This document shows positions 2,208-62,280 of a stretch of 62,280 bases of DNA, piece after piece (position 1 is the stretch's first letter; every line of letters begins with the position of its first letter). Location of the stretch: positions 1 through 62,280 of IMG/VR virus record IMGVR_UViG_3300030106_001081; one strand, 5' to 3'. A program made the position numbers and the translations under genes. A model generated the notes under the pieces. The model worked only from the letters and a program-made list of their open reading frames with translations, was not told the DNA's origin and did not search any database. This DNA is from a virus.

Positions 2208-2215
2208 GGTGAGTG

Positions 2216-2329
2216 ATGATAAGTAGTGATAAACATGAAAAGATCATGGAGTGGATCAAGAACATATTGGCAGGGTTAATCACCCTTGCCATTGTGGTGT
2301 TAATAATAATTTTCTTTTGTGCGATGTAA
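2216..2329 (+). CDS. small single-pass membrane protein
   Basis: A 37-residue ORF. A polar, charged N-terminus of about 15 residues is followed by one long hydrophobic helix from about residue 18 to the end, rich in Leu, Ile, Val and Phe. A GAGGTGAG ribosome site lies just upstream, and the gene fits snugly between the ATPase and the next small gene, whose ribosome site directly follows its stop. No family is recognised. It could anchor the MoxR/VWA system or act as a small membrane effector; both ideas are inference. Confidence 0.6.
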   Translation: MISSDKHEKIMEWIKNILAGLITLAIVVLIIIFFCAM

Positions 2330-2339
2330 GGAGGATAAC

Positions 2340-14391: not shown

Positions 14392-14408
14392 AAATATGGG
14401 TGGAGATT

Positions 14409-17174
14409 ATGGAAGCAAAAACATTTTTAGAAAATGTATTGGGGAGTGACGGTTATTACAGCGTATTAGCATTAAATGCCAATAAACGGATACAAAAAAT
14501 ATATAACTCTGTTGAGGCTGTATTACACGAAACAAATACCCTAGATACACAAGGATTTAATACTTTTTATGGGTTGGCTACTTTAGAAGATGGTAGCAGT
14601 CGTAAAAGTGAAAACGTAAAACATCTTAAGTCATTCTTTTTAGATTTAGACTGTGGAGAGGGTAAAGACTACCCAAACCAAACAGAAGCGATCAACGCTC
14701 TACGCGTATTTGTAAAGACGTTATCTTTACCTAAACCTGTTATGGTGAGTTCTGGATATGGAGTGCATGTCTATTGGATGTTAGAAGATACCGTGCATCC
14801 TGACGAGTGGATTCCCGTAGCAATGCGCCTTAAGAAACTGTGTGTAGAGCATGGGTTGAGGGCCGATCCTGCGGTTACGGCTGACACGGCTAGAGTATTA
14901 CGTGTGCCAGGGACCCACAACCATAAGGGTGACACACCTAAACAAGTTAAGGTGTTAGGTATAGAACCACCAACACTCGTGAACTTTGAAGGTTTTAAAG
15001 AATTGTTGGGCGGAGGTATAACACCTGTACCTGTAAAGGTAGGTTCTTTTAAGAGTGCGATAAGAGAACATGAGAGAGAAAATTCTCAGTACAGTTTTAA
15101 AACTATAATAATTAAGACTAAAGAAGGCACAGGATGCGACCAGATTAAATACATACTGCAGAATAAAAAGAGTATTAGTGAACCGCTATGGAGAGGAGGT
15201 ATATCCGTAGCAAACGAATGTAAGGACTCCGTTAAAGCTATAAAAATTATATCTGAAGGACATGAAGGGTATTCAGAAGAAGCAACGCAAAGAAAAGCAG
15301 ACGGTATAGCAGGGGATTACAAATGCACAACATTTGATGAACTTAACCCTGGAGTTTGTGAGGGTTGTTACAATTTTCGTAAAATAGAGCGTCCGTTAGT
15401 TTTAGGTAAAGAGATAAAGAAAGCACCTCTAGAACATAATGAGATACCTAAATACCCAGAGCCTTACTTCAGAGGTGTAAATGGTGGGGTGTATGTAAGA
15501 TTTCGTAATGCAGATGGCGATCCAGAGGATAAACTTATATATCATAACGACTTATATGTTATTAAACGTATACGTGATGTGGAGATTGGAGAAGCTATTG
15601 TAATGAAGCTCCACTTGCCAAGAGATGGGGTAAGAGAGTTTACAGTACCATTAACTTCTGTAACATCAAAAGAAGAATTAAGAAAACAACTATCTATGCA
15701 GGGCATAGCAGTAACAAGAATGGATGAACTTATGCAATATACAACGACGTGGGTAAATGAACTACAGATGCAAAGCGAAGCTGATGAAGCACGAAGGCAG
15801 TTTGGTTGGACAGATGATGAATTTAGTGGGTTTGTTCTTGGTAATGAAGAGGTTCGAAAAGACGAAATAAAATTTAACCCTCCTGCTACACCAACATTAC
15901 CATTGTTTCATTTGTTTAAACCTAAAGGTACATTAGAGGGTTGGAAGGATGCGGCTAATTTTTACAACCGTGACACCTTTGAACTGCATCAATTTATAGT
16001 CGGTACGTCTTTTGGTTCTCCACTTATGGCTTTAGCTCCTATAAACTGCGCAGGGTTGCATCTGCAAGGTATTACAGGTGTGGGTAAAACAACTGCTATG
16101 AAAGCAGGTTTAGCTATATGGGGAAACCCATCCGAATTAATTTTAGAAGAAGAGGATACAAAGGCTTTTAGTATGAACAGGGGGGAATTATACCATAGTC
16201 TACCTTTTTATTTAGATGAAATTACAAATATGTCAGGTAAAGAAATGTCTGTTTTGGCTTATCAAATTACAGGTGGTAAACAGCGTGGGCGTATGTCAGC
16301 AAACAGTAATGTAGAACGGGCTAGGGGTAAACCTTGGAAATTAATTTGTATTACATCAGGCAATACAAGCATGATAGAAAAAATAAGTTTATATAAAGCA
16401 ATACCTAAAGCAGAGGCACAAAGAGTATTGGAGTGTAGAGTGGCAGGAAAAGTTTTTGATACTAAAAAAGAAACTGATGACCTTTTAGCCGCTATAGATA
16501 ATAACTACGGTCATGCAGGTAAAATATATATACAACATGTTATGAATAATTTAGACGAAATTAAAAAACTTCTTATAGATGTGCAGACAAAAGTTGATAA
16601 AGCCGCAGGATTAAAAGCTGAAAATAGGTTTTGGTCTATACTTGTTTCTTGTACGCTAACAGGAATATTACTGGCAAACCGATTGGGACTTATTAATTAC
16701 GATACAAAGAAAGTATTTGCGTGGGCAATAGGTTTATTAAAAACTAACAAAAACCAAGTTGAAGATATGAGCATGTCTGTAGAAGAAACTCTTAATAACT
16801 ACATACACGAACATTGGAGCAACGTGCTATGGATAAAAAGCACAGATGATTTACGTAAGCAAGATGGTGAGGTCGATGACGATGTTTCGGACCTTATTAT
16901 ACCTGAAGCTAACGCTAGAATTAAATTTATTGCACGATATGAGACAGATTTAAAACGTGCGTATCTTATTCCCAAACCATTAAAGACTTGGTGCGGAGAA
17001 CAACAGATAAATTATAGTTCATTTGTGCATGACCTCAAAACGAAGTTAGGGGCTAAAAGAGCAAAAGTAAGATTAAGTAAAGGCACAAAGTTGCAACTTC
17101 CCGCAACAGATGTACTAGTAGTGGATTGTTCTATAGAAAATGAGACTAAGACAAGGAATACTGAGGACTTATGA
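14409..17174 (+). CDS. PrimPol-DUF927 primase-helicase
   Basis: A 921-residue fusion. The N-terminal archaeo-eukaryotic-type primase/polymerase domain has Phe-Leu-Asp79-Leu-Asp81-Cys-Gly (metal site), Ser-Gly-Tyr-Gly-Val-His120 (motif II) and a motif III region with Ala-Asp-Pro-Ala and Arg-Val-Pro-Gly-Thr-His-Asn-His. A Cys-rich segment follows around residue 310-325. The C-terminal half is a DUF927-type helicase with Walker A Gly554-Ile-Thr-Gly-Val-Gly-Lys560-Thr and a downstream Phe-Tyr-Leu-Asp-Glu-Ile Walker B. It would both prime and unwind DNA for the family A polymerase. The ATG at 14409 is chosen (GGTGGAG upstream) over GTG at 14400. Confidence 0.9.
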   Translation: MEAKTFLENVLGSDGYYSVLALNANKRIQKIYNSVEAVLHETNTLDTQGFNTFYGLATLEDGSSRKSENVKHLKSFFLDLDCGEGKDYPNQTEAINALRVFVKTLSLPKPVMVSSGYGVHVYWMLEDTVHPDEWIPVAMRLKKLCVEHGLRADPAVTADTARVLRVPGTHNHKGDTPKQVKVLGIEPPTLVNFEGFKELLGGGITPVPVKVGSFKSAIREHERENSQYSFKTIIIKTKEGTGCDQIKYILQNKKSISEPLWRGGISVANECKDSVKAIKIISEGHEGYSEEATQRKADGIAGDYKCTTFDELNPGVCEGCYNFRKIERPLVLGKEIKKAPLEHNEIPKYPEPYFRGVNGGVYVRFRNADGDPEDKLIYHNDLYVIKRIRDVEIGEAIVMKLHLPRDGVREFTVPLTSVTSKEELRKQLSMQGIAVTRMDELMQYTTTWVNELQMQSEADEARRQFGWTDDEFSGFVLGNEEVRKDEIKFNPPATPTLPLFHLFKPKGTLEGWKDAANFYNRDTFELHQFIVGTSFGSPLMALAPINCAGLHLQGITGVGKTTAMKAGLAIWGNPSELILEEEDTKAFSMNRGELYHSLPFYLDEITNMSGKEMSVLAYQITGGKQRGRMSANSNVERARGKPWKLICITSGNTSMIEKISLYKAIPKAEAQRVLECRVAGKVFDTKKETDDLLAAIDNNYGHAGKIYIQHVMNNLDEIKKLLIDVQTKVDKAAGLKAENRFWSILVSCTLTGILLANRLGLINYDTKKVFAWAIGLLKTNKNQVEDMSMSVEETLNNYIHEHWSNVLWIKSTDDLRKQDGEVDDDVSDLIIPEANARIKFIARYETDLKRAYLIPKPLKTWCGEQQINYSSFVHDLKTKLGAKRAKVRLSKGTKLQLPATDVLVVDCSIENETKTRNTEDL

Positions 17175-27513: not shown

Positions 27514-28296
27514 CTATGCGGGTAGTAACTTGTTAGGGTCTATCTCTTTACCCTGCTTACCGTTTCCAGTACGTGCTTTGCGTATACGCTCCATCATTTT
27601 ATCTAATATCTTAGCCCCTGCATCTGAATTACCGTTACCCAAATGACTTACAACATCTGCAGGAATTACATATTCCCCACCACTTAAAGCAGCGGGTTGT
27701 GTTTTGTCTATTGTTGCGGGTATTTTATCTGCCATACCATCACTGGACGACCTCAAGTATCGCCCTTTTGCAAGCCCTGCTAAACCACCTGTTGCCATAG
27801 TTTGAGTTTCTTCTACAGGAAATTCGTCTGCCATTGTGTATGTTGGCACAGGTAGTAAATTAGCTACTCCAGAAGCAGGTAAAGTTACTTTTGGACCTGT
27901 AAGTGACGGTATTGCTATTTTATTCTCTATTTCTTCTCTTGCAGGGTTAGCCCTGTTAAGATTAGCTAGTCCATATGCTTGTTCTGCTGCATTTAATTGA
28001 ACTTGAGACAATGGTGTTTGTTTATTAGGGTCAGTCTCATCTAAATTTACAAATCTAGTATCTGTAAAATATCGTTGCCCACTACTCCCTGGACGACGTG
28101 CAGGATCATATGTGCCTTGAACACGATCACGTACAACCCTGTAATTGGGGATGCTACCTTGATACCCCCTTGGACCTGTATTTCTAGCACCTGTAAGATT
28201 ATCAAGAAGTCCTGTCATACCTGCAAGGCCCGTTAACGCAATAGCTTCCGATTTATTATCTTGTAAATACTTTAACGCTGTGTCTAACCAACTCAT
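27514..28296 (-). CDS. probable virion protein with a Gly-Gly-Glu-Tyr-Val-Ile-Pro motif
   Basis: A 260-residue protein. The C-terminal 100 residues contain a Met-Ala-Thr-Gly-Gly-Leu-Ala segment, Asp-Gly-Met-Ala-Asp, and a Gly-Gly-Glu-Tyr-Val-Ile-Pro-Ala-Asp-Val-Val-Ser-His-Leu-Gly-Asn-Gly motif, which recurs in phage structural proteins, with a short amphipathic helix near the N-terminus. It overlaps the 1456-residue gene start/stop by 1 nt. Function is unknown; context implies virion. Confidence 0.65.
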   Translation of the reverse strand: MSWLDTALKYLQDNKSEAIALTGLAGMTGLLDNLTGARNTGPRGYQGSIPNYRVVRDRVQGTYDPARRPGSSGQRYFTDTRFVNLDETDPNKQTPLSQVQLNAAEQAYGLANLNRANPAREEIENKIAIPSLTGPKVTLPASGVANLLPVPTYTMADEFPVEETQTMATGGLAGLAKGRYLRSSSDGMADKIPATIDKTQPAALSGGEYVIPADVVSHLGNGNSDAGAKILDKMMERIRKARTGNGKQGKEIDPNKLLPA

Positions 28297-31200
28297 TACG
28301 CCTTACCTCCAAGTAATCTTATTAATTCGTTTGTTCGCTCATTATAGTTCATTGGTTTATTTTCTGCGAACATATTACTAAAATTATCTATATCTGTATA
28401 GTCTGAATATGGAGTAATAAACCTTTTCTCTTGTTCTGGATTAGCAAATATACTTGAAAAATCATACAAATAGTCAATATCTGCTATAAACGGTGTTTTT
28501 ATTGTAGTGTCCATAGCTGTTTGCGTAGGACTTTCTTCCTCCTTTTCTTCCTCTTTTTCTTCTTCAGGCACATCTACGTTTATATTTGCATCTACTTCAA
28601 CTTCTGTTTCAGCCTCAACTTCTGGTTCTACTTCAACTTCTGTTTCAGCCTCAACTTCTGGTTCTACTTCAACTTCTGTTTCAGCCTCAACTTCTGGTTC
28701 TACATCTGGTTCTACATCTGGTTCTACTTCAGCTTCTGTTTCAGCCTCAACTTCTGGTTCTACATCTGGTTCTACATCTGGTTCTACATCTGGTTCTACA
28801 TCTGGTTCTACATCTGGTTCTACATCTGGTTCTACATCTAACGAACTATCTGGATCAACAGAACCTACTATAGATATTAAATCTACGGTAGAATCTATAT
28901 CTGTATTAAGAGTATCAGCTAAATCTGTAATAATTTCTTCGTTTGGGTCCACAGGTGCTGTTTCTGTTGTATCTACTGCGGTATCATCAACAACATCCCC
29001 ACCAGAAGTGGTTAAATATGGAGGTATTGTCAGCGTTCCTGTTGTATCTACTGCGGTATCATCAACATCTACAGGTGCTGTATCCACTGTTTCTGTTGTA
29101 TCATCAACATCTACAGGTGCTGTATCCACTGTTTCTGTTGTATCATCAACATCTATAGGCGTTGTATCCACTGTTTCTGTTGTATCATCAACTATTACAG
29201 GCGCTGTCTCTGCTGTAGTAAGTAAATCTTCTAAAATAGTAGCGGTATCATCAACATCTACAGGCGTTGTATCTACTGTTTCTGTTGTATCTAATATGGT
29301 AGAAATAGCATCTGGGGGTCTTTGTATAATACCCGCTTCTTGTAAAACATTGTCTACCAATTCGGGGTCAAGACCTGCTTCAATCAAAGCATTACTTGTT
29401 AATTCTATTTCTTCCGATTTAGTAAATCCAGAATTTACAGCTGTAGTGTTCATATTTGACACTATTTGCCCAACTTCACTACTTGGCAAAGCTCCTGTGG
29501 TAGTAAATGTTGTGCCTGTAACATTAATTGGCTCAGCCATGCCTGTAGTAACAGGAGTTGTAGGCACTTCGTCATAAGTAGGTCCACCAAACGGATCAAC
29601 CGCACTTGCTGTCGAAATAGCTGCAACTGCACTAGAGCCGCTTTCTAAAGCACCGTTGAGGATAGATGATATAACTGAGTCTCCGCCTTCGGCTAAATCC
29701 ACGTTTTCAAGTGCTTGATTTACTATTTCTTCTTGATACCCCTCACCCAAAGCATCTACAGCAGTATCTGCTACAAAACCTGTGGCTATTTTAGCCGCTA
29801 TTAGAAGTGGATTTTTACCTTTATAATCTGCTAAAGACCTACCTAAACTACCTGTAAACGCTCCACTAGCACTTTCTCCTAAAGCTGCTAAATCTTTATA
29901 CCCGTTAGCTACGTGATCTGTAAGCATAACGAGTGCATTTTGGTCACTTCCCGTCGCATTACGATAGTCTTCCCACAATGGAGATTCTTGCAATGTGCCA
30001 TTTTGGTAAGCCGCTAACATAGTATCTTCGATATTTTGAGCTGATTCTCCAACACCTTCAAGGTATCCTGCTAAAAGATTTATAGGTAATCCCCATTTTT
30101 TAAATATTGCTCCCGTTAAAAATTCTGTAGCTGCGTCGCCCCCTCCTTTTGCTTGTGTTCCTAAAAGTCCTTTGACAGTAGTGTCTCCCCCAGTTACAGG
30201 AGATGTTTGTTCAAACCTAATCCCAAACGGTGAATCAGGGTCGTCTACAACAGTAACATCTCCACCACCAAACATTTGTGCGTCAATAGCAGCTTTAACT
30301 TCAGGCGAAACATTATCGTCATATATGCCTTTTCCTAAAGCTATAGAAGCGCTTATAAAATCAGCAAACAATCCTTTTTTAGACGTATATAAATCTACAT
30401 ATTCATCTAATAGTTTTTGTTTTATTTCAGGAGAAACATCCATATTTGAAATGTCTTGCATCATGTCCATTGGGTCTACAAAAGCTCCAGTGCCATATTT
30501 TGCGAGTCGCTCTGCATAGAGATCATTTATTTTTTCTGCTAAACCTTTTGTTATATAAGGCACATTTTCCTTTAAAATCTCACTTACCAGAACCGCAGGA
30601 TAAGACGTTACCATTTGACCCATCAATTTAGCGGCTTCAGGATTGTTTATTTTCCACAACGCATCTTCAAAATCTTCATTTGTAGGTCCAAGAGTATCAG
30701 GAAAATCTGGCATGGCCCCTGACGCTTCCAAAGCTTCTAATTCTAATTGTTTTTCATAAGCTATTTTTGTTTCTTCATTTGTTGGACCTACATAACCTTC
30801 TTTATCTTTATTTGGATCATTACCTGCATTTGCAGCATCTCTTAATTCTTCAGTAGCATGAGATACCCCGCTTGCGTCTAAAAATCTTGTTGCATCATCT
30901 GATATAGGCGGTTTAGTTCCATCTCCTAACGCATTAATAGCATCTATGACATCCTGTTCTCCTCCTGCAGGGGGTGTATATCCCGACTCTGGGTAAATAT
31001 CACTAGGCTCATCGAATACGGGAGGCTTGTCTGATATTACTGGAGGGTCATCAGATGCAGGGGCAGTAGGGGGAACAGAAGGTGGATCACCCACAGGTTG
31101 AGAGAGAGGGGTAGTGTCAATATCAGGACCAATAATATCTCCTAGATCACCTACATTAGTTAAACCTGCTTCCTCCAAAGATTCAGCAAGGTCTTGATAA

Positions 31201-32666
31201 GCTTCAACATCAACAGTGGCCTCTGCTCCTGTTTCTGCTTCTGCCATAGCATCAAGAGTTTCAGCATCTACTATCATAGCAGTGCCGTCTTCACCCTCTG
31301 GAGGTTTATATGTTGCAGTTGTTACAAGTCCTCCCCCTATGGCTGCGTCTAGTGCGCTAACTGCGTCTGACCCTTGAAGTAGTTGATTGCCCCCTGTAAC
31401 AAAAGTGGTTACAATACCTTCTGCTGCAGCATCAGAAAGATCGGGGTACGCCTCTTTTATTACGTTTGCTATGTCTTTTCCTATAGTCTCAAGAGCGTCA
31501 CCTGCAAACGTATCTATTGCAATTCCAGTTAAATTTTTTCCTTCACCTGCGGCTTTAATAGCATTAACCACTGTGCTTGACGGAGCTTTACCTGTTGCTT
31601 CTGTTATTGAATTAATTACGGAGTTTGTTAAGGGCGCAAGCGCCCCTGAAGCAGCTAATGCTTGAAAAGCGTTTAAATTCCCGTCAGCCACACCTTTGAC
31701 TATTGATGCTGCTGTTGTGTAAGGTATAGAAGCTCCACCTGTAGCAAGTGCAAGAAGTCCTTTGGCAATATTACTCTCAAGAAATTTGTTAATAAAACCT
31801 CCAAGGCCCTCACGTCTTTCACCCTCTGCGCCTTTTTCCCAATCTACAGCGTGTTCAAATTTCTTTCTGCCTGTATCTTTTTCTACCGCCTCTCCATCTT
31901 CATTTACGTAAACTTGCGCCCAAGTATCCCCAATGTCTTTAAAGACCGTACCATCTTCACTAAACCTGTAACCTTTTTTGGGTTCGCCATCTTCATCTAC
32001 ATACGCACTCGTGTCTGTCAAAGGAGTTAAATTTTCATTAACAACTTCTTCATAGTTATCTAAAAGTTCTTTAGCTCTATCCTCATCACGAACACCTATG
32101 TCAATCTCATTACCATCTTCATCTCTGTAATACCAATACCCGTCACTTTTTTCATAAATATCAACATCATATGGAGGAGGTGAGGGAGGTAAAGGAGGTG
32201 GAGCAATAGCGGGAGTTTGGTTTGCAGCTGCAAAAGCCTTGGTGTCAAAATTGGTAAAAGTTTTACCGTCTATAGTTACCGTATCGGTTCCACCTGTACC
32301 TACAAAATCATTAAGGTTAGATGTATTAATACCTGTGTACTGTTCTTCAGGACCATCTCCAATTTTAACACTAGTAAACGTAGGAGCAGGTGGAGCAGGA
32401 GTGGTAGGGGGGGCAGGAGTGGGGGTGGGATAACCAGTATTTGCCGCCGCTGCCATTTGCTCGGCTACTTGAGCTTCAAATGCTGCTTGTGCAGCTGCTG
32501 CTTCAGCATTCGCTTTTTCTATTGCCGCTGCTTTCGCCTCCGCCGCTGCCGCTCGCTCAGCTAGTAGACGTTCACGTTCCATATTCGCTTTTTCCGTCGC
32601 TGCTTTTGCTGCTGCTATTGCTTCGTTTATACGTTCAATTTCTTTTAACATTTCCGCTCTTGTCAT
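28296..32666 (-). CDS. large virion protein with coiled-coil head and acidic repeat tail (1456 aa)
   Basis: N-terminal about 75 residues are Ala/Glu/Lys coiled coil, followed by a Pro/Thr-rich linker (about 76-97). A long central region with alternating helical and Gly-rich segments follows (about 250-1050), including hydrophobic stretches that could insert in a membrane. The tail has Val-Asp-Asp-Thr-Thr-Glu-Thr type repeats (about 1130-1240) and then Glu-Pro-Asp-Val and Glu-Val-Glu-Ala-Glu-Thr repeats (about 1275-1365), extremely acidic. I infer an internal virion/ejection protein or tail-associated scaffold. No enzymatic motif is evident. Repeat number is likely variable between relatives. 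Confidence 0.65.
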   Translation of the reverse strand: MTRAEMLKEIERINEAIAAAKAATEKANMERERLLAERAAAAEAKAAAIEKANAEAAAAQAAFEAQVAEQMAAAANTGYPTPTPAPPTTPAPPAPTFTSVKIGDGPEEQYTGINTSNLNDFVGTGGTDTVTIDGKTFTNFDTKAFAAANQTPAIAPPPLPPSPPPYDVDIYEKSDGYWYYRDEDGNEIDIGVRDEDRAKELLDNYEEVVNENLTPLTDTSAYVDEDGEPKKGYRFSEDGTVFKDIGDTWAQVYVNEDGEAVEKDTGRKKFEHAVDWEKGAEGERREGLGGFINKFLESNIAKGLLALATGGASIPYTTAASIVKGVADGNLNAFQALAASGALAPLTNSVINSITEATGKAPSSTVVNAIKAAGEGKNLTGIAIDTFAGDALETIGKDIANVIKEAYPDLSDAAAEGIVTTFVTGGNQLLQGSDAVSALDAAIGGGLVTTATYKPPEGEDGTAMIVDAETLDAMAEAETGAEATVDVEAYQDLAESLEEAGLTNVGDLGDIIGPDIDTTPLSQPVGDPPSVPPTAPASDDPPVISDKPPVFDEPSDIYPESGYTPPAGGEQDVIDAINALGDGTKPPISDDATRFLDASGVSHATEELRDAANAGNDPNKDKEGYVGPTNEETKIAYEKQLELEALEASGAMPDFPDTLGPTNEDFEDALWKINNPEAAKLMGQMVTSYPAVLVSEILKENVPYITKGLAEKINDLYAERLAKYGTGAFVDPMDMMQDISNMDVSPEIKQKLLDEYVDLYTSKKGLFADFISASIALGKGIYDDNVSPEVKAAIDAQMFGGGDVTVVDDPDSPFGIRFEQTSPVTGGDTTVKGLLGTQAKGGGDAATEFLTGAIFKKWGLPINLLAGYLEGVGESAQNIEDTMLAAYQNGTLQESPLWEDYRNATGSDQNALVMLTDHVANGYKDLAALGESASGAFTGSLGRSLADYKGKNPLLIAAKIATGFVADTAVDALGEGYQEEIVNQALENVDLAEGGDSVISSILNGALESGSSAVAAISTASAVDPFGGPTYDEVPTTPVTTGMAEPINVTGTTFTTTGALPSSEVGQIVSNMNTTAVNSGFTKSEEIELTSNALIEAGLDPELVDNVLQEAGIIQRPPDAISTILDTTETVDTTPVDVDDTATILEDLLTTAETAPVIVDDTTETVDTTPIDVDDTTETVDTAPVDVDDTTETVDTAPVDVDDTAVDTTGTLTIPPYLTTSGGDVVDDTAVDTTETAPVDPNEEIITDLADTLNTDIDSTVDLISIVGSVDPDSSLDVEPDVEPDVEPDVEPDVEPDVEPDVEPEVEAETEAEVEPDVEPDVEPEVEAETEVEVEPEVEAETEVEVEPEVEAETEVEVDANINVDVPEEEKEEEKEEESPTQTAMDTTIKTPFIADIDYLYDFSSIFANPEQEKRFITPYSDYTDIDNFSNMFAENKPMNYNERTNELIRLLGGKA
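28590..28842. repeat. 12-bp-unit minisatellite coding an acidic Pro-Glu-Val-Asp tail
   Basis: On the plus strand GGTTCTACATCT-type 12-bp units recur in tandem, most regularly at 28698-28720 and 28758-28842, interspersed with longer units containing TCTGTTTCAGCC. They encode Asp-Val-Glu-Pro and Glu-Val-Glu-Ala-Glu-Thr repeats in the 1456-residue protein. Slippage in this tract would change tail length in multiples of four residues without frameshift. Confidence 0.9.
28960..29290. repeat. about 42-bp coding repeats (Val-Asp-Asp-Thr-Thr-Glu-Thr)
   Basis: Four to five imperfect copies of a unit containing GTTGTATCATCAACATCTAC on the plus strand, encoding Pro-Val-Asp-Val-Asp-Asp-Thr-Thr-Glu-Thr-Val-Asp-Thr-Ala in the 1456-residue protein. 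They are distinct from the downstream 12-bp units. Confidence 0.85.
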
Positions 32667-54369: not shown

Positions 54370-54559
54370 CGTCGTCTTCCATATAGTTGCGCGAGAGGTC
54401 GGATATATGTGTGAGACTAGCATTTAGACCTCGGATCAGGCCAGTCACTTCCTTGTATTGGGCAAAGTCTTTTGCTCCACCATTACCAAGAAACTCTTGT
54501 GCAGAAACTTTATCAGCTTCGATTTTTTCTTTCAGCACGTCAAAGACGGTTTTAGCCAT
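54362..54559 (-). CDS. small helical protein between portal and GroES-like genes
   Basis: A 65-residue protein with Lys/Glu-rich helix and acidic end. It overlaps the GroES-like start by 8 nt and the portal stop by 1 nt. No family recognised; probably head-assembly related. Confidence 0.6.
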   Translation of the reverse strand: MAKTVFDVLKEKIEADKVSAQEFLGNGGAKDFAQYKEVTGLIRGLNASLTHISDLSRNYMEDDDE

Positions 54560-57006
54560 TAATTATTCCTATCTCTCCCCTTGTTTTGGTTTAAAATATC
54601 CATTTTCATTTTATCTTGCTCACTTTGTCTAGCATCATTTAATTTAATACCATCTTTTCTAGCTTCAAGAGTCAATTCTGCTTGCTCAAGTTCTAATTTT
54701 TTAACATCTATAGCTCCATCAGTCATATCTTTTTGTGCTTTACGTTGTTGTTCTGCTTGACGTAACTGTATATCAGCTTGATCTTTTTGCGCCTTTCTTT
54801 GAACTTCAGCCTGTTTGATCTGCAACTCTGCCTGCTGCATTTGAACAATTGGGTCTTGCGCTTTCTGTTGTGCCTGTTGTTGTGCAGCCTGTTGTTGATG
54901 GGCTTGTGTAAGTTGCTTACCTGCATCGGCGACAAGTCTAGCTAAATTAACTTCTACATCTTCTGCAAGAGGTTGATCTGGAGGTGGTAACTCTACACCA
55001 AGCCTCTCTTCTATATCTTTACGATACTTAAACCCAAGATGTTCAGCTATATGTGCTTGTAAGGATGCCATAATCTTTTTTGCCTGTGGATTCTGACCTA
55101 TCATCTGCATAATCATAGGGTCCTGCATAAATGACATATGCGTTGCAATATGAGCTTCCTGATCTTGATACAAAAATGCTTTCATGGGCTTACCCTGCAA
55201 TGCTGCCATGTTTTCACTTACAGGATCAACAGGAGTCATATCATCCTCTACAGGAACAAGTTTATCTGCGTTCTTTACCCCAAGAACTTCTATCATCTGT
55301 CTATGTAATTGAGGCAGGTCATATATTTGTGGTGCAGATTGAGACATCTGGAGAACTGCCTGATACTGCACCACTCTCTGTGCCATAGTGGAGCTATTTG
55401 GGTCTGACACAGGTATAACATCAACCATAGCGTAGTCGGCTTGCCGTGCGCTAACTTCCCCTCGTTGTGGTTGATATGCGTATTCAATCGGGGCATACTC
55501 CGCTAATAAAGTTCTTAAGAGTTTAAACTCCTGCTTCATAGCGTAGTGGACACGAGCCTGAACTGCCGCCATTGGTTTTAGAGTACGCTCTAACAGAGCA
55601 AGAGTTGTCCCCACAGGAGCATTAGCAGACATATCAGATATGTTCATATCGCTGATTGCGCCTAACCTTCTCCCTTCTTGAGTTATTTGATTCAACAAAG
55701 CCAACAAAGTTTGGCTCGGTTCTTTGTAAGGAAGGGGCATTATATTCTCACGAATACTGCCAGACGGCACATCTACATCTCTAAATGACCCAGGTTCTAT
55801 AGGAGTGTCATCTCCTTTTATGCGTAAGCCTCTTGTTTTTAACCCTCCTGGGAGGTTTGCTAATGTCCCTGCATCCACAAGCTGCCGTATGAGCGAGGTT
55901 CCCGCTTTAGCGTACCCCCCTATTATATGTATCAAACCTAACCCGTAAAACCCAAATCCTGGGACATATACATAATGTACGAAGTGTTGTCGTTTTAACA
56001 TCAACTCGTCATCAGAGTTCCAGTTTCTCCGTATCGCCAATACTTCATTAGAACCACGTTCTATAGTTACAACGTAAGGTTTAGCAATTTCATCTTCAGA
56101 ATCATCAATACCATCAATAACAAGGTCTGCATGTACCTCGTAAACACTATATCTATAGTCGTCCGTTAAAGAATACCCACCTTCTTCGGCTTTTCTTTTC
56201 TCAATGTCATTGTGGTATGGCTGCGGCTCTCCAAGTTCTACATCACGGTAAAACCCGTTAGCCTGTAACTTCTTCAACTCATTTTTTGTTTTTCGCATAA
56301 CATGGGTAACACGTTCTGCGGTTTCTACGTGTGAAGCTCCATAGGGTACAATAACATCTTCTGCGGGTATATAAACCGCCATCTGTCGTCCTAGATTTGG
56401 ATCATAATATACTTTCTTGAACGCCGACCCTGCTAAACCAAGACTATAGAGCAATCTCTCATGTTCTGGTCTGTATTCAACCATATTCTCGGTAAGCTCA
56501 TAATTCATATCCGCCTTAACACGAAGTGCAGCGGCTTCTTTTTCTTTAGTCTCTTCCCCAAGAATTTTTGTCTTTACAGGCCCTGCAGAAGGAAAAGTTT
56601 CACTCATTGTCTCTGCCTGAAACCGTATAGCGGCTTCGGCTAATACTGTAGAATACACCCCACAAGCTCCGTCCCATGGTTCAGTACGCTCTTCATACTT
56701 AAACCCTAACACGTCAAGACCCTTTACAAATGTATCAGCCCAGTCTTTACGACTATCTACATCTGAATCAATCGACCCCATAAGATCATCTGCCAACAAA
56801 GATAGTTCGTTCTCTTCCAATACTTCAGCAAGATTCTCGTCAAATGCACCTGTGGAAGCCATTTTATCTTCAGGAATAATAGTAATCTCCATACTACCAT
56901 CATCCAATGTTACCATATCAGGGTTGACTATCTCTACCTCCAGAGCAGAAGTGTCTTCACCGTTTATACCTTGAGGTGCTTGGTATAGTCCTTTTTCAAC
57001 TGCCAT
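54559..57006 (-). CDS. portal protein, P22-type
   Basis: An 815-residue portal. The N-terminal half has Trp-Ala-Asp-Thr-Phe-Val-Lys-Gly and Glu-Pro-Trp-Asp-Gly-Ala-Cys-Gly-Val-Tyr, then Leu-Ala-Glu-Ala-Ala-Ile-Arg-Phe-Gln-Ala-Glu and Gly-Leu-Ala-Gly-Ser-Ala-Phe-Lys-Lys-Val-Tyr-Tyr-Asp-Pro, characteristic of portals of this type. The last about 120 residues are Gln/Lys-rich coiled coil. It forms the dodecameric DNA channel and docks the terminase encoded just upstream. Confidence 0.88.
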   Translation of the reverse strand: MAVEKGLYQAPQGINGEDTSALEVEIVNPDMVTLDDGSMEITIIPEDKMASTGAFDENLAEVLEENELSLLADDLMGSIDSDVDSRKDWADTFVKGLDVLGFKYEERTEPWDGACGVYSTVLAEAAIRFQAETMSETFPSAGPVKTKILGEETKEKEAAALRVKADMNYELTENMVEYRPEHERLLYSLGLAGSAFKKVYYDPNLGRQMAVYIPAEDVIVPYGASHVETAERVTHVMRKTKNELKKLQANGFYRDVELGEPQPYHNDIEKRKAEEGGYSLTDDYRYSVYEVHADLVIDGIDDSEDEIAKPYVVTIERGSNEVLAIRRNWNSDDELMLKRQHFVHYVYVPGFGFYGLGLIHIIGGYAKAGTSLIRQLVDAGTLANLPGGLKTRGLRIKGDDTPIEPGSFRDVDVPSGSIRENIMPLPYKEPSQTLLALLNQITQEGRRLGAISDMNISDMSANAPVGTTLALLERTLKPMAAVQARVHYAMKQEFKLLRTLLAEYAPIEYAYQPQRGEVSARQADYAMVDVIPVSDPNSSTMAQRVVQYQAVLQMSQSAPQIYDLPQLHRQMIEVLGVKNADKLVPVEDDMTPVDPVSENMAALQGKPMKAFLYQDQEAHIATHMSFMQDPMIMQMIGQNPQAKKIMASLQAHIAEHLGFKYRKDIEERLGVELPPPDQPLAEDVEVNLARLVADAGKQLTQAHQQQAAQQQAQQKAQDPIVQMQQAELQIKQAEVQRKAQKDQADIQLRQAEQQRKAQKDMTDGAIDVKKLELEQAELTLEARKDGIKLNDARQSEQDKMKMDILNQNKGRDRNN

Positions 57007-58559
57007 TAGTAATATCCACTTCCTCTACGTTTAAAGTATTGAACCTCTTCAGGTTCATCGGTTGGTAGTCTTATAAAGCCGCCCTGTCTGAACCGCATAA
57101 GCGCCATCACAGTCGAATCTACAAGGTCATCGTGACTCATAAACGGAAATCCTGCAATCTCTTCTATTACCTCTTCTGCCCATCGTGTCTCTGGAACCCA
57201 TACAAGCCCAGAGGATACTATATCTGTTACGGAGTTCAGACGTGCTAACTTGTCACCAGAACCCCTATGCGGTGTATACTCCTGTATCGGAAGTCCCATT
57301 CGCCGCATCTCTTGGTAAAGAGCCGTACCTGCGCTCTTCTTCTCAACTATGAACGAATCAGGTTCCCACTCAGCATACTCATCCATCGCTAGTTGCTTAA
57401 GTTCTGGAAACTCCATTCGCTTTTTAATACTGTTTAACAGAATAATGTTATAGTTGTCCACCTCTTCGTTCAAAAATACACCCCAAGTCGTCAAAGCAGT
57501 GTAATCGGCACGATTGTGTGTCTCTGCTGCCGCATCAAGAGACATGATAATGTACTCACAGGCAGGAGGTTCCTCCTTCTTCCACATCTGCCACCACTCA
57601 CGTTTAACCAAAGCCGCCTCTTCAGCTGTCGGTTCTTGTTGATATTGAGCGTTCCACTGAAACACAGGCATAGAAGCTTTGGTACGTAGTAGTGCTTCAA
57701 GATCAAAGAACTCAGGCCAGAGAGGTTTTTGTACCGACTCCCCTGTTTTCTTACTGGTCGTATCTAAAATAGCAGGGAACTCCACAACCTCATACTGATC
57801 TGCCCTTTCATTCTGAGACATGTCCCTTACAACACGCCCCGTCAAGTCATCCATATGCCAACGTGTCTGTATTATGGCAACTCGACCTCCAGGCATAAGA
57901 CGGGTCCTCGCACCAAAGGTGAACCAGTCATAAGCTTTTTCGAACACTTCAAAGTTTCCGTTAATGACATCTTGTTCAGAATGGGGGTCATCGACGAGCA
58001 GGAGGTCAGCACCACGACCTGCAATAGAAGAACCAATACCACACGCATAATACTCACCTCCTACATTTGTGTTCCATCGACCTGCAGATTTTGAATCAAC
58101 AGCCAAAGATACCGTAGGAAATATCGCTTTGTATTCTTCTGTTGCAATTAAGTTACGCACTTTTCGTCCAAAATCTACCGCTAAGTCCGTGGTGTGTGAC
58201 ACCATCATAACCTTCTTATTCGGGTTCCTACCCAGAAACCAAGCAGGGAACATAATAGAAACAAGCTGTGATTTACCATGTCTGGGGGGTATATTAACAC
58301 AAATTCTGTCTTTTTTGCCTTGTTCTATGTCCATTAACATATCAGCAAGCAGTCTATGATGCCGCCCAACTATGTAATCAGGTTGCATATGCTTACAAAA
58401 CGCTATTAAATCGTCATAAGCCGCCTGATTATAGTTACGTGTTGCTAATTCTTCAACCATTCGGTCAATCTCAGCAACCTCTTCGGTACTATATTGGTCC
58501 AGATTATCCAACATTATCTGGATTTCAGCCTCTGTAAAATCTAACGTGTGTTTATTCAC
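57006..58559 (-). CDS. terL: terminase large subunit
   Basis: A 517-residue packaging ATPase/nuclease. Walker A-like Pro-Pro-Arg-His-Gly-Lys-Ser at 91-97, a Leu-Leu-Leu-Val-Asp190-Asp191-Pro-His motif and a C-terminal nuclease with Ser-Leu-Asp-Ala-Ala-Ala-Glu-Thr and a late Asp-Asp-Leu-Val-Asp-Ser cluster. The start is GTG with GAGGA upstream, overlapping the small-subunit gene by 8 nt. It translocates DNA into the prohead and cuts it. Confidence 0.93.
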   Translation of the reverse strand: MNKHTLDFTEAEIQIMLDNLDQYSTEEVAEIDRMVEELATRNYNQAAYDDLIAFCKHMQPDYIVGRHHRLLADMLMDIEQGKKDRICVNIPPRHGKSQLVSIMFPAWFLGRNPNKKVMMVSHTTDLAVDFGRKVRNLIATEEYKAIFPTVSLAVDSKSAGRWNTNVGGEYYACGIGSSIAGRGADLLLVDDPHSEQDVINGNFEVFEKAYDWFTFGARTRLMPGGRVAIIQTRWHMDDLTGRVVRDMSQNERADQYEVVEFPAILDTTSKKTGESVQKPLWPEFFDLEALLRTKASMPVFQWNAQYQQEPTAEEAALVKREWWQMWKKEEPPACEYIIMSLDAAAETHNRADYTALTTWGVFLNEEVDNYNIILLNSIKKRMEFPELKQLAMDEYAEWEPDSFIVEKKSAGTALYQEMRRMGLPIQEYTPHRGSGDKLARLNSVTDIVSSGLVWVPETRWAEEVIEEIAGFPFMSHDDLVDSTVMALMRFRQGGFIRLPTDEPEEVQYFKRRGSGYY

Positions 58560-59154
58560 CTTTTTCCTCGTCTAAACCTAGCTCTTTGTCCACATCTAAG
58601 GGTTCTCCGTCTATTACAACGGCGTTTTCTACATTTTCAGGTGGATTTACTAGTTTTGCGAGCTTAGAACGCAGTTTTTCACGTAGATCATCCGTAGACT
58701 GATGTGTTATGGTGACTTCAGACTTCTCTGCGAACAATCCTACGTCTGAAATTTTACCTAAAAGCTCCAAAGCACGGATTCTGACCCGTGGATCAGGGTT
58801 ATCTGTCTCCAATAATAGCTTATTTGTTACTAAATGGCGTATTTGCACCGAACTTTCGACCACAGAACGCCCAAATTCTTGCAAAATGCTGTTTGTCAGC
58901 ACCAAAGATGCGGGTGTGAGGGTTGCGAGATTCTTTTCAGAAGCTTTTTTAGAAGTTTTTTCAGGGTTATCAGCATAAGCCGTAACAAGTTTAGCTGCCA
59001 CATCTTTATCTTCCTTGGTCGGTTCCAGTTCTAAACCATGTTCTTCAAGTTCTTTAGCCGTATTTGCTGCTGCCTCTACACGATCTTTAAGGTCAACAGG
59101 AGGTTTACCCTCTGTCATAGGTACACCAAGTTCAGGTTCTACTACTATAGTCAT
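58552..59154 (-). CDS. probable terminase small subunit
   Basis: A 200-residue acidic, largely helical protein located directly upstream of terL. The central segment (Arg-Ile-Arg-Ala-Leu-Glu-Leu-Leu-Gly-Lys-Ile-Ser-Asp-Val-Gly-Leu-Phe) resembles phage small terminase proteins, and the C-terminus is strongly acidic. It would recognise the packaging site, likely in or near the adjacent non-coding region. The family is assigned by context and motif. First gene of the late operon. Confidence 0.72.
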   Translation of the reverse strand: MTIVVEPELGVPMTEGKPPVDLKDRVEAAANTAKELEEHGLELEPTKEDKDVAAKLVTAYADNPEKTSKKASEKNLATLTPASLVLTNSILQEFGRSVVESSVQIRHLVTNKLLLETDNPDPRVRIRALELLGKISDVGLFAEKSEVTITHQSTDDLREKLRSKLAKLVNPPENVENAVVIDGEPLDVDKELGLDEEKGE

Positions 59155-59342: not shown

Positions 59343-59559
59343 TCCAATCTCAGAATTTTACGATTTATTTGAGTAAATTAATATATATACACCTGCGTAT
59401 AGCTATAACAGCATAGCGGGCCATGCCCTACCCGTACCCATTAAATACCACCAAAAAACACTATATGGTAATATATTTCATCTCATACCATTGTACGTGC
59501 TAACGTGTTTTGGTAGGTTTATCTTATCAGCAAGACAATAATGTTTTGTTGTTTTAACC

Positions 59560-59577
59560 GATAAGTAATTACTTATC
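59560..59577. repeat. 18-bp palindrome, copy 5
   Basis: Perfect GATAAGTAATTACTTATC preceded by AACC, just upstream of the GAAAGGA ribosome site of the first early gene. The right flank is CACA. Confidence 0.95.
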
Positions 59578-59600
59578 ACATTTTGAAAGGAAATAGCCAA

Positions 59601-60419
59601 ATGGCGAAATCAAATATAATTACTGAAGAGTTTGCGAAATCATTAGAAGAAAAGGGGATTGCAGAAATGCAAGGCTCTTTGGCAGTATATCAAGAATTAA
59701 ACTTGTTATGCGATCAATCCACTGATCCCGCAAAGGAAATTGCGAATGGGTACGACACAAACCGTAATTGGGATAAGGCTAAGACTAGGCTAAGTAAAAA
59801 AGTCTATGATAGTATTATCTTTCCTATGTTTTGCGCAATTGCTCATGGTGGTCGAAAGAGCGCGGCTTTTATAGCCATTCAAGAATTTACTGATAATTTT
59901 ACTACCTATGATAAAGATAAGATCAAAGATACTAGGTATGATAAAGTTATCGAAACTATTCATGGTAAAATGATAAGTTTGGATAGGGCGCTTGCTATGG
60001 TCGGCGACAAAAATAGAAAGTATGTCAAACGTGTTGCTGATATAGCTATGGCTAACAAAGTCGAGGCTTTTGAGGCTAAAGAAGATCAAGCTCTAGCTAA
60101 GAAGTTTGCAAGTATAGATGCTAACGAAAGTAAAACTGAAGATCAAAAGACTGATCTTAAGAATAAGGCTTTCGCAGCAAGTAAAGAAAGAGTTGCTGCA
60201 TATACTCGCAAGGCTAAAAATTCAACTAAGGATAACAATAAGTCTGACTATGCTAGTAAATTGGATAGGGCTTGGAAGGTTGTTATTGCCGAGTTAGCAA
60301 ATGTTGAAAAGTTAAATGCGAAGAGTAAGGTATTCGGGAAAGCTATGACGTGTAAGTTTGACACTCCTGAAGATCTACTTGAGCACGTTAAGTCGATCGC
60401 AACATTAACCGATAAGTAA
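59601..60419 (+). CDS. abundant-looking Lys/Ala-rich early protein of unknown function
   Basis: A 272-residue soluble protein, first gene of the early block. It is rich in Lys, Asp, Ala and Asn with several helical segments and a possible coiled coil at about 155-215. The ATG at 59601 has GAAAGGA upstream; a TTG at 59583 is less likely. Its C-terminal Thr-Asp-Lys-stop is encoded by palindrome copy 6. No family recognised. It lies between palindrome copies 5 and 6. Confidence 0.7.
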   Translation: MAKSNIITEEFAKSLEEKGIAEMQGSLAVYQELNLLCDQSTDPAKEIANGYDTNRNWDKAKTRLSKKVYDSIIFPMFCAIAHGGRKSAAFIAIQEFTDNFTTYDKDKIKDTRYDKVIETIHGKMISLDRALAMVGDKNRKYVKRVADIAMANKVEAFEAKEDQALAKKFASIDANESKTEDQKTDLKNKAFAASKERVAAYTRKAKNSTKDNNKSDYASKLDRAWKVVIAELANVEKLNAKSKVFGKAMTCKFDTPEDLLEHVKSIATLTDK

Positions 60420-60428
60420 TTACTTATC
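60411..60428. repeat. 18-bp palindrome, copy 6 (supplies a stop codon)
   Basis: Perfect GATAAGTAATTACTTATC with AACC before and AAAA after. The left half encodes Asp-Lys-stop of the 272-residue gene. An ATG starts 4 nt after the right edge, as at copy 4. Confidence 0.95.
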
Positions 60429-60434
60429 AAAAAT

Positions 60435-60456
60435 GGGATGCAAGAAATTGCATCCC
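60435..60456 (+). other. perfect hairpin with GAAA tetraloop, overlapping a 13-codon ORF
   Basis: GGGATGCAA pairs with TTGCATCCC around GAAA. No T-tract follows. A mini-ORF of 13 codons starts at 60433, 4 nt after palindrome copy 6, and ends at 60474, so the hairpin lies within it. Possible roles are mRNA stabilisation, processing or a leader peptide. Nothing in the sequence decides between them. Confidence 0.7.
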
Positions 60457-60479
60457 GACAACCCGAAAGGATAAAAACA

Positions 60480-60578
60480 ATGCAAGACGAACACGTTATG
60501 GCATGGGCAAGACTGCAGCCCAAACCAATGCCATTAATTCTAAAATTGTTATTGCAACGCAAAATTGCAAGAGATTAG
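60480..60578 (+). CDS. tiny ORF with good ribosome site (32 aa)
   Basis: Starts at ATG after AAAGGA at ideal spacing and ends 2 nt before an in-frame-shifted ATG at 60581. It encodes 32 residues, Leu- and Lys-rich, no motif. It overlaps the next ORF in another frame. It may be a leader that couples translation to the basic protein that follows. Confidence 0.4.
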   Translation: MQDEHVMAWARLQPKPMPLILKLLLQRKIARD

Positions 60579-60730
60579 ATATGGGAAAGAATATCTACAA
60601 GAAAGTAATTGAAGGCGTAAAGAAAGCACGTAAATTAAAAAGGGCCGCTCGTAGATCAAAAGACTTGCGGCGGCGTTTAAAATCGATGCAAGGTTATCAT
60701 GAGCTAATTGATAGTCTTACGCCACGCTAA
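60503..60730 (+). CDS. small very basic protein
   Basis: A 75-residue ORF from the ATG at 60503; an internal ATG at 60581 gives 49 residues and lies just after the upstream tiny ORF stop, which may be the real start. The C-terminal 45 residues are Lys/Arg-rich (Lys-Lys-Ala-Arg-Lys-Leu-Lys-Arg-Ala-Ala-Arg-Arg), typical of nucleic-acid binding. No strong ribosome site at either start. Last gene before the large non-coding region. Confidence 0.5.
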   Translation: MGKTAAQTNAINSKIVIATQNCKRLDMGKNIYKKVIEGVKKARKLKRAARRSKDLRRRLKSMQGYHELIDSLTPR

Positions 60731-60736
60731 AACTTT

Positions 60737-60752
60737 GGGAGCTACGGCTCCC
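60737..60752 (+). other. short GC hairpin with TACG tetraloop
   Basis: GGGAGC pairs with GCTCCC around TACG directly after the small basic gene. Downstream there is no T-tract. It could be the 3' end or a processing signal of the upstream mRNA. Confidence 0.5.
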
Positions 60753-60753
60753 A

Positions 60754-60874
60754 TCGTCGCCAGTGTTCTGACTAGCGTAGCGTCTTGACGTGTCACTCTA
60801 TATTACACAATCCCCCCCGTAATCTGATAAGTGATTACTTATCGTCGCCAGTGTTCTGACTAGCGTAGCGTCTT
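60754..60874. repeat. 33-bp direct repeat pair
   Basis: An identical 33-bp sequence at 60754-60786 and 60842-60874, each followed by a diverged copy of the same GAC/AAC-rich stretch and then a palindrome copy (60826 and 60892). It looks like a tandem duplication of about 70-88 bp that carried the palindrome. Confidence 0.85.
60826..60843. repeat. 18-bp palindrome, copy 7 (variant)
   Basis: GATAAGTGATTACTTATC, one change from the consensus (A to G). It lies inside the non-coding region, directly before the second 33-bp repeat. Confidence 0.9.
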
Positions 60875-60891
60875 AACATGTTACTATAAGT

Positions 60892-60909
60892 GATAAGTGA
60901 TTACTTATC
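60892..60909. repeat. 18-bp palindrome, copy 8 (variant)
   Basis: GATAAGTGATTACTTATC, the same variant as copy 7, after the second 33-bp repeat and before the iterons. Confidence 0.9.
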
Positions 60910-60916
60910 GAATTTG

Positions 60917-61260
60917 TAATGTTCGGTAATGTTCGGTAATGTTCGGTGAATGTTCGGTTTTTTTAGAGCAAAAACGAACAATATGTTTCGTGGTATCTAA
61001 TGGTATCTAATAGCAAGTAGTAATAAATAATATAGTAAAAATAGGTATATATATATATATATCTTATAATGTTCGTTTTCTAAAATTTATGCGGTGACAT
61101 TTTGCTTACCCCCCTAATGTTCGTTTTTCTACACTCTTCTCTCCCCCACATTTTGCCCTCTTCATAATTCCTGTAAAAAACGAACATTAGAACATTCCAA
61201 TCTTTTCAGATACTTGCAAGCCCTACTAACAGAACATTATGGAACATTACCGAACATTAC
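60917..61260. repeat. iteron-like TAATGTTCG repeats in both orientations
   Basis: Tandem TAATGTTCGG at 60917, 60927 and 60937, then GAATGTTCGG at 60948; single TAATGTTCG at 61067 and 61115; then the inverted form CGAACATTA at 61181 and GAACATTA-type copies at 61232, 61241 and 61250. The centre holds a TA repeat at about 61046-61062 and a direct repeat of TGGTATCTAA at 60991 and 61001. The arrangement suggests a binding array for an initiator or regulator. Confidence 0.8.
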
Positions 61261-61315
61261 ACTAAAACACACTATTTACTAAAACATACCACTTCTAAAT
61301 CTCACAAAATAGTTC

Positions 61316-61344
61316 TTGACATTTCGTGTTATTTGTGTTATACT
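61316..61344 (+). promoter_or_regulatory. near-consensus sigma70 early promoter
   Basis: Perfect TTGACA (61316-61321), 17-bp spacer and TATACT (61339-61344), 5 of 6. The start point near 61351 lies about 50 nt before the first ATG at 61402. It would drive the rightward early block through the junction. The end of the iteron array is about 55 bp upstream, so a protein bound there could regulate it. Confidence 0.85.
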
Positions 61345-61401
61345 GTAGGCATAATCGAAATATATCTAAAAAACAGGTCATTTACCACAGGAGAACATGT
61401 T

Positions 61402-61620
61402 ATGACACAGAAAAAACCGATAAGTAATTACTTATCAAAACCACGATGTAAGGAGTGTGGGGAAAGATACAATCCCAAGCGCAAAGCTTTGGGGTATACC
61501 ACTTGTCTAGATTGTGGATCACCTATCAAGCAATTTTGCACGGTAGTGTTTCACAAGCAAGCCCCGCAGGTCGTAACACGTTTAGAGCAACTGACCCAAA
61601 CAAACCAGAAAAACCGATAA
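61402..61620 (+). CDS. small zinc-ribbon protein
   Basis: A 72-residue protein with two Cys-x2-Cys knuckles (Cys-Lys-Glu-Cys and Cys-Leu-Asp-Cys), a basic linker and a third Cys. Its N-terminus contains Ile-Ser-Asn-Tyr-Leu-Ser-Lys encoded by palindrome copy 9 in frame, and its stop codon is supplied by palindrome copy 10. The ATG at 61402 has AGGAGA upstream; an in-frame TTG at 61333 lies in the promoter and cannot be used. First gene after the early promoter; a regulatory role is plausible but not shown. Confidence 0.75.
   Translation: MTQKKPISNYLSKPRCKECGERYNPKRKALGYTTCLDCGSPIKQFCTVVFHKQAPQVVTRLEQLTQTNQKNR
61419..61436. repeat. 18-bp palindrome, copy 9 (inside a coding sequence)
   Basis: Perfect GATAAGTAATTACTTATC with AACC/AAAA flanks, translated in frame as Ile-Ser-Asn-Tyr-Leu-Ser near the start of the zinc-ribbon gene. 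Confidence 0.95.
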
Positions 61621-61633
61621 GTAATTACTTATC
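61616..61633. repeat. 18-bp palindrome, copy 10 (supplies a stop codon)
   Basis: Perfect GATAAGTAATTACTTATC with AACC/AAAA flanks. Its first bases encode Arg-stop of the zinc-ribbon gene in a frame different from copies 4 and 6. It precedes the AAAGGAG ribosome site of the next gene. Confidence 0.95.
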
Positions 61634-61656
61634 AAAAACCAGAAAGGAGAAAGACT

Positions 61657-62250
61657 ATGAGTAAACAAAACGAAATGATGGCACAGGCACTCAAGGAGTA
61701 CATGCAAATGAGAGCCGACGATATCGCAGAGGTGTATGAGATAATGTCGATAGAAGATGTTAAGACCAGAAACGCACGGGAAGATAAATACATCGAAGAC
61801 ACACTCAATGACGTGTTCGCACGTAACATGCCAGAACTACAGGAAGAAGACATGGAGGTGGACGAGACAATATACCACCCAAGTGCAGAACCAAAGCCAT
61901 TCGTAAAACCACGAACTATAGAAGAAGTAAACAAACTGAAGGGAGAAACCAAAAGAAAAAAGAAGAGTATCCTTGTGTTGATGGACAAGTTACACCCACG
62001 AACTCAAGAGTATATCAAATGGGTGTTTAAATATGGGGTGGGTATTTTAATTCCAAATGACAGTCCCGAAATGAAACGTAATTGTATTGAAACTGCATTA
62101 CGGTTTGAGCAAAGCACAGGCAAAACATATGCCCCAAGTGAGCCTTGGATTAATGAACTTAACAGAGCGATAGATGCACAATACGGCAGTATTGCAGAAA
62201 GAAAAAGAAAATTTAAACTAAACAAACCAAAGGGAGAAACCAATGAGTAA
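61657..62250 (+). CDS. early protein of unknown function (197 aa)
   Basis: A Glu/Lys-rich protein: an acidic first half (about 1-75), a Pro-containing linker, a Lys-rich stretch (about 97-104) and a C-terminal domain with Trp-Val-Phe-Lys-Tyr-Gly-Val-Gly-Ile-Leu-Ile-Pro-Asn. AAAGGAG lies upstream of the ATG. It overlaps the next start by 8 nt. No family recognised. Confidence 0.7.
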   Translation: MSKQNEMMAQALKEYMQMRADDIAEVYEIMSIEDVKTRNAREDKYIEDTLNDVFARNMPELQEEDMEVDETIYHPSAEPKPFVKPRTIEEVNKLKGETKRKKKSILVLMDKLHPRTQEYIKWVFKYGVGILIPNDSPEMKRNCIETALRFEQSTGKTYAPSEPWINELNRAIDAQYGSIAERKRKFKLNKPKGETNE

Positions 62251-62280
62251 AGCAAAAGTAATATGGAGCATCGAAAAAGA
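62243..62280 (+). CDS. N-terminal start of a gene running off the window (joins the left end)
   Basis: An ATG preceded by GGGAG starts 8 nt before the upstream stop and is open for the remaining 12 codons: Met-Ser-Lys-Ala-Lys-Val-Ile-Trp-Ser-Ile-Glu-Lys. If the last base and base 1 were one and the same A, the frame would continue into the open frame at 3-188, giving a protein of about 74 residues. As written a direct join would give a TAG after one further codon. Confidence 0.55.
   Translation, partial: MSKAKVIWSIEK

Follow-up and report, generated by a model that had tools for sequence, protein, structure and literature searches.

We analyzed a 62,280-nt stretch of DNA, referred to here as the window, which is an IMG/VR virus record and represents a tailed phage. 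Late genes occupy about 59.15 to 17.7 kb in leftward orientation; the genes for early functions and replication point rightward, from 59.58 kb to the contig end and again from the contig start to about 17.4 kb. Gene direction switches between 59154, where the leftward genes end, and 59583, where the rightward genes begin, and again near 17.7 kb, where the leftward genes begin. The early and replication set comprises a MoxR-like ATPase, a DUF2201/VWA protein, a family A DNA polymerase, an SNF2 helicase, a Gp2.5-like single-stranded DNA-binding protein and a PrimPol-DUF927 protein. Both ends of the contig (1–184 and 62240–62280) carry what appear to be two halves of one small gene, offset by a base or two, and for this reason the genome is probably a near-complete circle, or circularly permuted, with a small assembly fault splitting one gene. 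The genes considered in this analysis are the following:

185–1066, plus strand: DUF3150 protein
7843–9744, plus strand: family A DNA polymerase
13393–13656, plus strand: HTH_17 (excisionase/MerR-like) protein of 87 aa
13678–14337, plus strand: Gp2.5-like single-stranded DNA-binding protein, adjoining the PrimPol gene
14400–17174, plus strand: PrimPol-DUF927 helicase of 924 aa, proposed initiator
54559–57006, leftward: portal, a late gene
57006–58559, leftward: terminase large subunit, a late gene
58552–59154: probable terminase small-subunit gene (weak PHROG match)

The DUF3150, MoxR-like ATPase and DUF2201/VWA genes (185–1066 and 1113–3825) form a conserved phage cassette, and a similar set is found in phage MinM2. 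Elsewhere in the window, GGTTCTAC is repeated 12 times at 28601–29050, inside a large leftward gene (28296–32666). A turn in GC skew had been put forward as a test for an origin in this genome. The cumulative skew reaches its minimum at 59176 and its maximum at 17386; both turns coincide with switches of the gene strand and, because the skew follows gene direction, it does not discriminate.

To the right of the first switch, in a non-coding segment that contains no listed ORF, we observed ten exact (A/G)AATGTTC sites and two near-copies within 345 bp, together with further elements:

60917–60957, plus strand: left iteron set A1–A4, TAATGTTCGG at 60917, 60927 and 60937 (10-bp steps) and GAATGTTCGG 11 bp further on, at 60948
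60975–60984, minus strand: site B, a single inverted near-copy, CGAACAATAT
61018–61097: A+T-rich tract with (TA)n, candidate melting region; the TA tract lies at about 61045–61063, before site C
61067–61076, plus strand: site C, TAATGTTCGT, bordering the A+T tract and strongly conserved
61115–61124, plus strand: site D, TAATGTTCGT, at a position poorly conserved among relatives
61181–61198, minus strand: site pair E1/E2, CGAACATTAGAACATTCC, 8 bp apart, with GAACATTA at 61182 and the imperfect GAACATTCC at 61190
61204–61216, plus strand: IHF-like site TTTCAGATACTTG, agreeing with 7 of 9 consensus positions
61231–61260, minus strand: right iteron set F1–F3, inverted GAACATTA at 61232, 61242 and 61252 (10-bp steps)
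61316–61344, plus strand: strong sigma-70 promoter, TTGACA (61316–61321) and TATACT (61339–61344) with a spacer of 17, 55 bp beyond the last iteron

The layout is symmetric, with four rightward sites on the left, a leftward trio on the right, the inner sites B, C, D and E1/E2, and the A+T tract between the two sets. The outer arms (60915–60947 and 61229–61261) form a 33-nt inverted repeat with 91% complementarity. The string AATGTTCG occurs nine times in the window compared to 1.69 expected, a number reached in none of 100 shuffles, and eight of the nine copies lie inside the array; likewise, 11 of the 14 AATGTTC copies in the window are found at 60910–61265. As in iteron origins, multiple short phased copies of one site are present, with an A+T-rich region beside or between them. 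The original prediction had described an iteron cluster around a TA tract and next to a promoter, and the repeats, the tract and the promoter all lie where it had placed them. It had missed the two imperfect inverted copies at 60975–60984 and 61190, and the cluster proved more ordered than described, with 12 site positions, the IHF-like site and the promoter in helical register. We rejected the array as an RNA element, an Rfam search near it having returned no match of weight. A 48-nt direct repeat with 92% identity is located at 60753–60800 and 60841–60888, and an element related to it (CCAGTT...GCGTTGAGCC) recurs upstream of the arrays in relatives.

For comparison we used 98 loci, namely 80 contigs chosen by the neighbouring ATPase gene alone and 18 chosen by the iteron string; the latter are not independent evidence, as they were picked by the iteron string itself. 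The array profile was complete in 81 of the 98 loci and partial in four. It was seeded from some of these loci, with strong matches also coming from loci outside the seed, and since the relatives share ancestry the counts are not independent trials. Conservation of the iterons in relatives was one of the tests that could have refuted the original prediction, and the outcome was strongly favourable: among the 80 ATPase-chosen loci 66 carry a complete array and three a partial one, ten end before the region and one (L083) is without an array. Dozens of uncultured aquatic viruses have retained the array. In every contig that includes both the probable terminase small-subunit gene and the DUF3150-ATPase-VWA genes, it is found between them.

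Next to its presence, the geometry of the array is fixed. The median identity of 38 non-redundant arrays to the window is 52%, and the information content in these arrays is 1.27 bits per position at the sites compared to 0.56 outside. The left sites are typically spaced by 10–11 bp. From A4 to B we measured 27 bp in 31 of the 38 relatives and 17 bp in four, from B to C 91–93, 102–104 or 113–114 bp, and from C to E1 mostly 114–115 bp. E1 and E2 are 8 bp apart in all 38 aligned rows, and the right trio, which advances in 10-bp steps, follows about 42 bp after E2. The iterons within one genome vary jointly, as AATGTTCG, its -TCC, -TTC and -TGC forms, or AATGTAAC. The window has AATGTTCG at nearly every site; L009, L051 and L221 have AATGTTCC, L012 has AATATTCG, L010 has AATGTTTC and related variants, L011 mostly AATGTAAC or AATGTTAC, and L035 AATGTTGC at several sites. 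Because all sites in a genome change together, the pattern of these sequences is best explained by one sequence-specific protein that would read every site in a given genome.

A search of annotated phage DNA with 59500–62280 gave no match. No close cultured relatives were found, the best terminase matches being HTVC027P, HTVC023P, DSL-LC04 and MinM2 at 42–46%, and inspection of HTVC023P, DSL-LC04 and MinM2 revealed no comparable array. Near their terminase genes, the Pelagibacter phage HTVC023P carries a CTAGGAAA repeat array (L114, 11670–11780) and the Synechococcus phage MinM2 a TGTCATAC repeat array (L116, 37200–37560). MinM2, Pag-Yong1 and Pra-JY27 (OQ594354, OL906435 and PP438419) are assigned to three cyanobacterial hosts; as their length (65014) and match scores are identical, some of these host labels may be wrong.

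We then considered the A+T tract, the IHF-like site and the promoter across the relatives. The A+T content peaks at 78–83% (20-nt windows, 61048 to 61097) at a conserved position beside site C. The full IHF consensus WATCAANNNNTTR (9/9) is found in 32 relatives at the same place as the site in the window, and at least 8 of 9 positions agree within the 42-bp gap between E2 and F1 in 45 of 69 rows compared to 4.7 expected from shuffling. Nearly all non-redundant relatives have a strong promoter after the array. The distance from E2 to the −35 element is 127 bp in the window and 97/98, 107/108, 117, 127, 137 or 147 bp in nearly all relatives, so that, divided by 10, it leaves a remainder of 7 or 8 in 36 of the 38 rows (period 10, R 0.90), while two control distances downstream of the promoter are non-periodic (R 0.23 and 0.31). 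The periodicity also holds when each distinct value is counted once, as a precaution against shared ancestry (Rayleigh p 0.003, period 10), and an alignment artefact was rejected as its cause, the quantised distance persisting when measured from the E2 anchor. The helical phasing may have been selected, or it may be partly mechanical, since repeats added or lost as 10-bp units could account for part of it.

With regard to the protein that might bind the array, the best PDB matches of the PrimPol-DUF927 protein, both by sequence and by fold, are 8tch, the replication initiator of SaPIbov1 (profile E 6e-17; Foldseek E 1e-13), and 5dgk, the SCCmec protein Cch. The phage encodes a helicase of the SaPI Rep initiator family (DUF927, 8tch, 5dgk), as expected of a PICI/SaPI-type origin. 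In SaPI Rep it is the C-terminal domain that recognises the iterons (PMC7581432). The C-terminus of the phage helicase (about 845–909) is predicted by AlphaFold, at low confidence (pLDDT about 47–74), to be winged-helix-like with the order strand-strand-helix-helix-strand-strand. Covariation between the iteron and this C-terminus was weak and at most suggestive (partial r 0.24, permutation p 0.062), with another peak at residues 376–445. The PrimPol-DUF927 protein is likely to be the initiator of the array, although the array (60917–61260) and the helicase gene (14400–17174) are about 15 kb apart even in a circular genome. The HTH_17 protein is a candidate alternative or additional binder: it is conserved in 78 of 80 PrimPol loci, and in L035, where the iteron is altered, its recognition helix is altered as well.

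The original prediction had sought the initiator close to the array, which was not borne out: the 272/278-residue, basic and zinc-ribbon proteins that it named were found in 0, 0 and 10 of the loci searched. None of the 98 loci has a relative of the array-side genes at 59583, 60503 and 61657, and ten have one of the zinc-ribbon gene; we rejected the neighbouring genes as initiator because they are not conserved with the array. The DUF3150 protein, a conserved neighbour of the array in 90 loci, was rejected as well: 32 of 36 members match Pfam DUF3150 and its model is mostly helical. It is a probable partner of the MoxR-like ATPase and VWA proteins.

As the layout agrees with the description of PICI-type origins and the phage encodes that initiator family, we consider the element at 60917–61344 to be probably a replication origin that is tied to an early promoter and functions in the manner of PICI origins. 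In this model, several molecules of the PrimPol-DUF927 helicase encoded by the phage would bind the two facing AATGTTC sets via the C-terminal winged-helix domain, and the array would be folded in its right half by a host IHF-type bending protein. Between the iteron sets, the A+T-rich tract would melt, two helicase rings would load there and the fused primase domain would prime synthesis for the phage family A polymerase. Because the promoter is held in helical register with the array, early transcription is probably also under the control of the bound complex, or else assists it. The earlier wording, 'origin or early switch', named the right short list, and apart from the nearby initiator that interpretation is in part supported. 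Several points speak against an origin: the HTH_17 protein, a second conserved DNA-binding protein, could be the array binder; the phased promoter would also fit a purely transcriptional role; the initiator gene is 15 kb away; the covariation between iteron and helicase C-terminus is weak, and that part of the model has low confidence; and the IHF site of the window reaches just 7 of 9 positions.

The first alternative is an array for early transcription control to which the HTH_17 protein or another regulator binds cooperatively, with replication starting elsewhere. Binding along one face of the DNA, together with bending by IHF, would then activate or repress the promoter at 61316–61344. The near-universal promoter after the array, its distance from E2 set against the non-periodic controls, and the conservation of HTH_17 with its altered helix in L035 all agree with such a role. 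However, an A+T tract within a two-sided array of about 350 bp exceeds what a promoter needs, the spacing could arise from gain or loss of 10-bp repeat units alone, and the phage has an initiator family whose known origins resemble this array. We regard regulation without replication as rather unlikely; given the phasing, the array may have a transcriptional role, be it in addition or instead.

A packaging site, at which the iterons would bind the terminase small subunit together with IHF and start DNA cutting, appears improbable. Lambda cosB pairs terminase sites with IHF in this manner, the IHF consensus is present in the relatives, the distance from the array to the probable terminase small-subunit gene, which is conserved together with it, is 1.8 kb, and the distant relatives HTVC023P and MinM2 have repeat arrays beside their terminase genes. 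Contig ends near the array, however, which provide an indirect test, lie dispersed over 70–2219 nt upstream of the gene for DUF3150 and do not coincide, and full-length relatives begin at many different map positions. Furthermore, the array stays with the early operon, with variable genes between it and the terminase gene, and packaging leaves the A+T tract and the promoter unexplained. That the array is a partition or copy-control (incompatibility) locus of a plasmid-like prophage, its iterons titrating an initiator or binding a partition protein, is hardly credible: plasmid iterons of such kind do also act as control loci, but no integrase or partition gene was recognised among the window proteins scanned, and the A+T tract better fits an origin.

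For the origin reading, the closest known systems are the PICI origins. In island origins, an A+T-rich region invariably lies between two iteron sets, an organisation described as shared by no other known bacterial replicon (PMC6092414). The array resembles the origins of SaPIbov1 and Gram-negative PICIs in its two sets of short iterons around A+T-rich DNA and in the family to which the initiator helicase belongs (DUF927, SaPIbov1 Rep); this phage has primase and helicase fused, as is sometimes the case in PICIs. It differs in belonging to an autonomous tailed phage, in its IHF-like site and helically phased sigma-70 promoter, and in having more sites in a fixed 12-position layout. Moreover, SaPI origins lie directly downstream of rep, whereas here the array is far from the initiator gene and not immediately 3' of it, and virion genes (terminase and portal), which satellites lack, are present in the window. 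On account of this distance between origin and initiator gene, and of its own virion genes, the element falls outside the PICI class.

In SCCmec the putative origin consists of three AAGTG iterons directly downstream of cch2 (PMC7581432). Cch and Cch2 share the helicase family (Cch has DUF927) and the use of short direct repeats as iterons, but the putative origin is without the layout of our array. Iteron plasmid origins of the pSC101 and R6K type have direct iterons, an A+T-rich melting region, an IHF site and a nearby promoter, all of which have counterparts here, whereas the initiator proposed here is a self-contained primase-helicase and not of the RepA/Pi type. The alpha protein of phage P4, which recognises short iterons, combines primase, helicase and origin binding, as we propose for the PrimPol-DUF927 protein; the helicase family and the iteron sequence differ, and P4 uses two separated sites (ori/crr).

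Pseudomonas phage Rollin (OR577172) encodes a PrimPol-DUF927 protein with 28% identity over 91%. Its non-coding region contains eight TTGCATA copies in about 420 bp (at about 260–680 of the record) compared to 1.07 expected in 12.1 kb: one trio, in 9-bp steps, adjoins an A+T tract, a second trio faces it in 22-bp steps, and the remaining two copies stand alone; the gene table of the record has nothing annotated at this array, including no origin. Common to both phages are the related helicase, facing trios of a 7-bp site, an A+T tract and genome-specific palindromes nearby, while Rollin differs in its site, in its spacings of 9 and 22 bp and in an A+T tract that lies beside one trio and not between the trios. 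Rhizobium phage RHph_TM27A has a similar gene order and an A+T-rich non-coding region with no clear iteron array. It is conceivable, and we suggest this tentatively, that these elements represent a class of phage origin not described before: an island-type primase-helicase, IHF and the RNA polymerase bound to a sigma-70 promoter would assemble into one helically locked complex and couple the firing of replication to early transcription. A large group of uncultured aquatic phages would possess it, and so, with other iterons, would cultured phages like Rollin.

The array provides a concrete origin candidate for widespread phages that are uncultured and have just distant cultured relatives, and links it to a family of initiators that has been encountered chiefly in pathogenicity islands and SCCmec. 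An organisation of two iteron sets that was called unique to PICIs, if it serves autonomous phages, bears on the source of satellite replicons: the PICI-type layout would be wider than described and may have been acquired from or by phages. In addition, the joint change of the iterons under a fixed layout represents a natural experiment on the co-evolution of initiator and origin.

Finally, we observed an 18-bp palindrome, GATAAGTAATTACTTATC, in ten places (1074, 2417, 3829, 6020, 59560, 60411, 60826, 60892, 61419 and 61616), seven of them exact and three with one changed base. It occurs only in the early region and near gene starts. In relatives, comparable positions are occupied by different palindromes (TTAGTGACTCACTAA, TTAGGGAATTCCCTAA, TTACGGAATTCCGTAA and others), each genome usually having a single family; that of Rollin is AAAAGGTAGYAASTTACTACCTTTT. 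These palindromes may be operators of a fast-diverging regulator. Comparable dispersed repeats have been described in Cluster A, K and O mycobacteriophages (PMC4351075). Some of the palindromes are in frame and immediately follow start codons.
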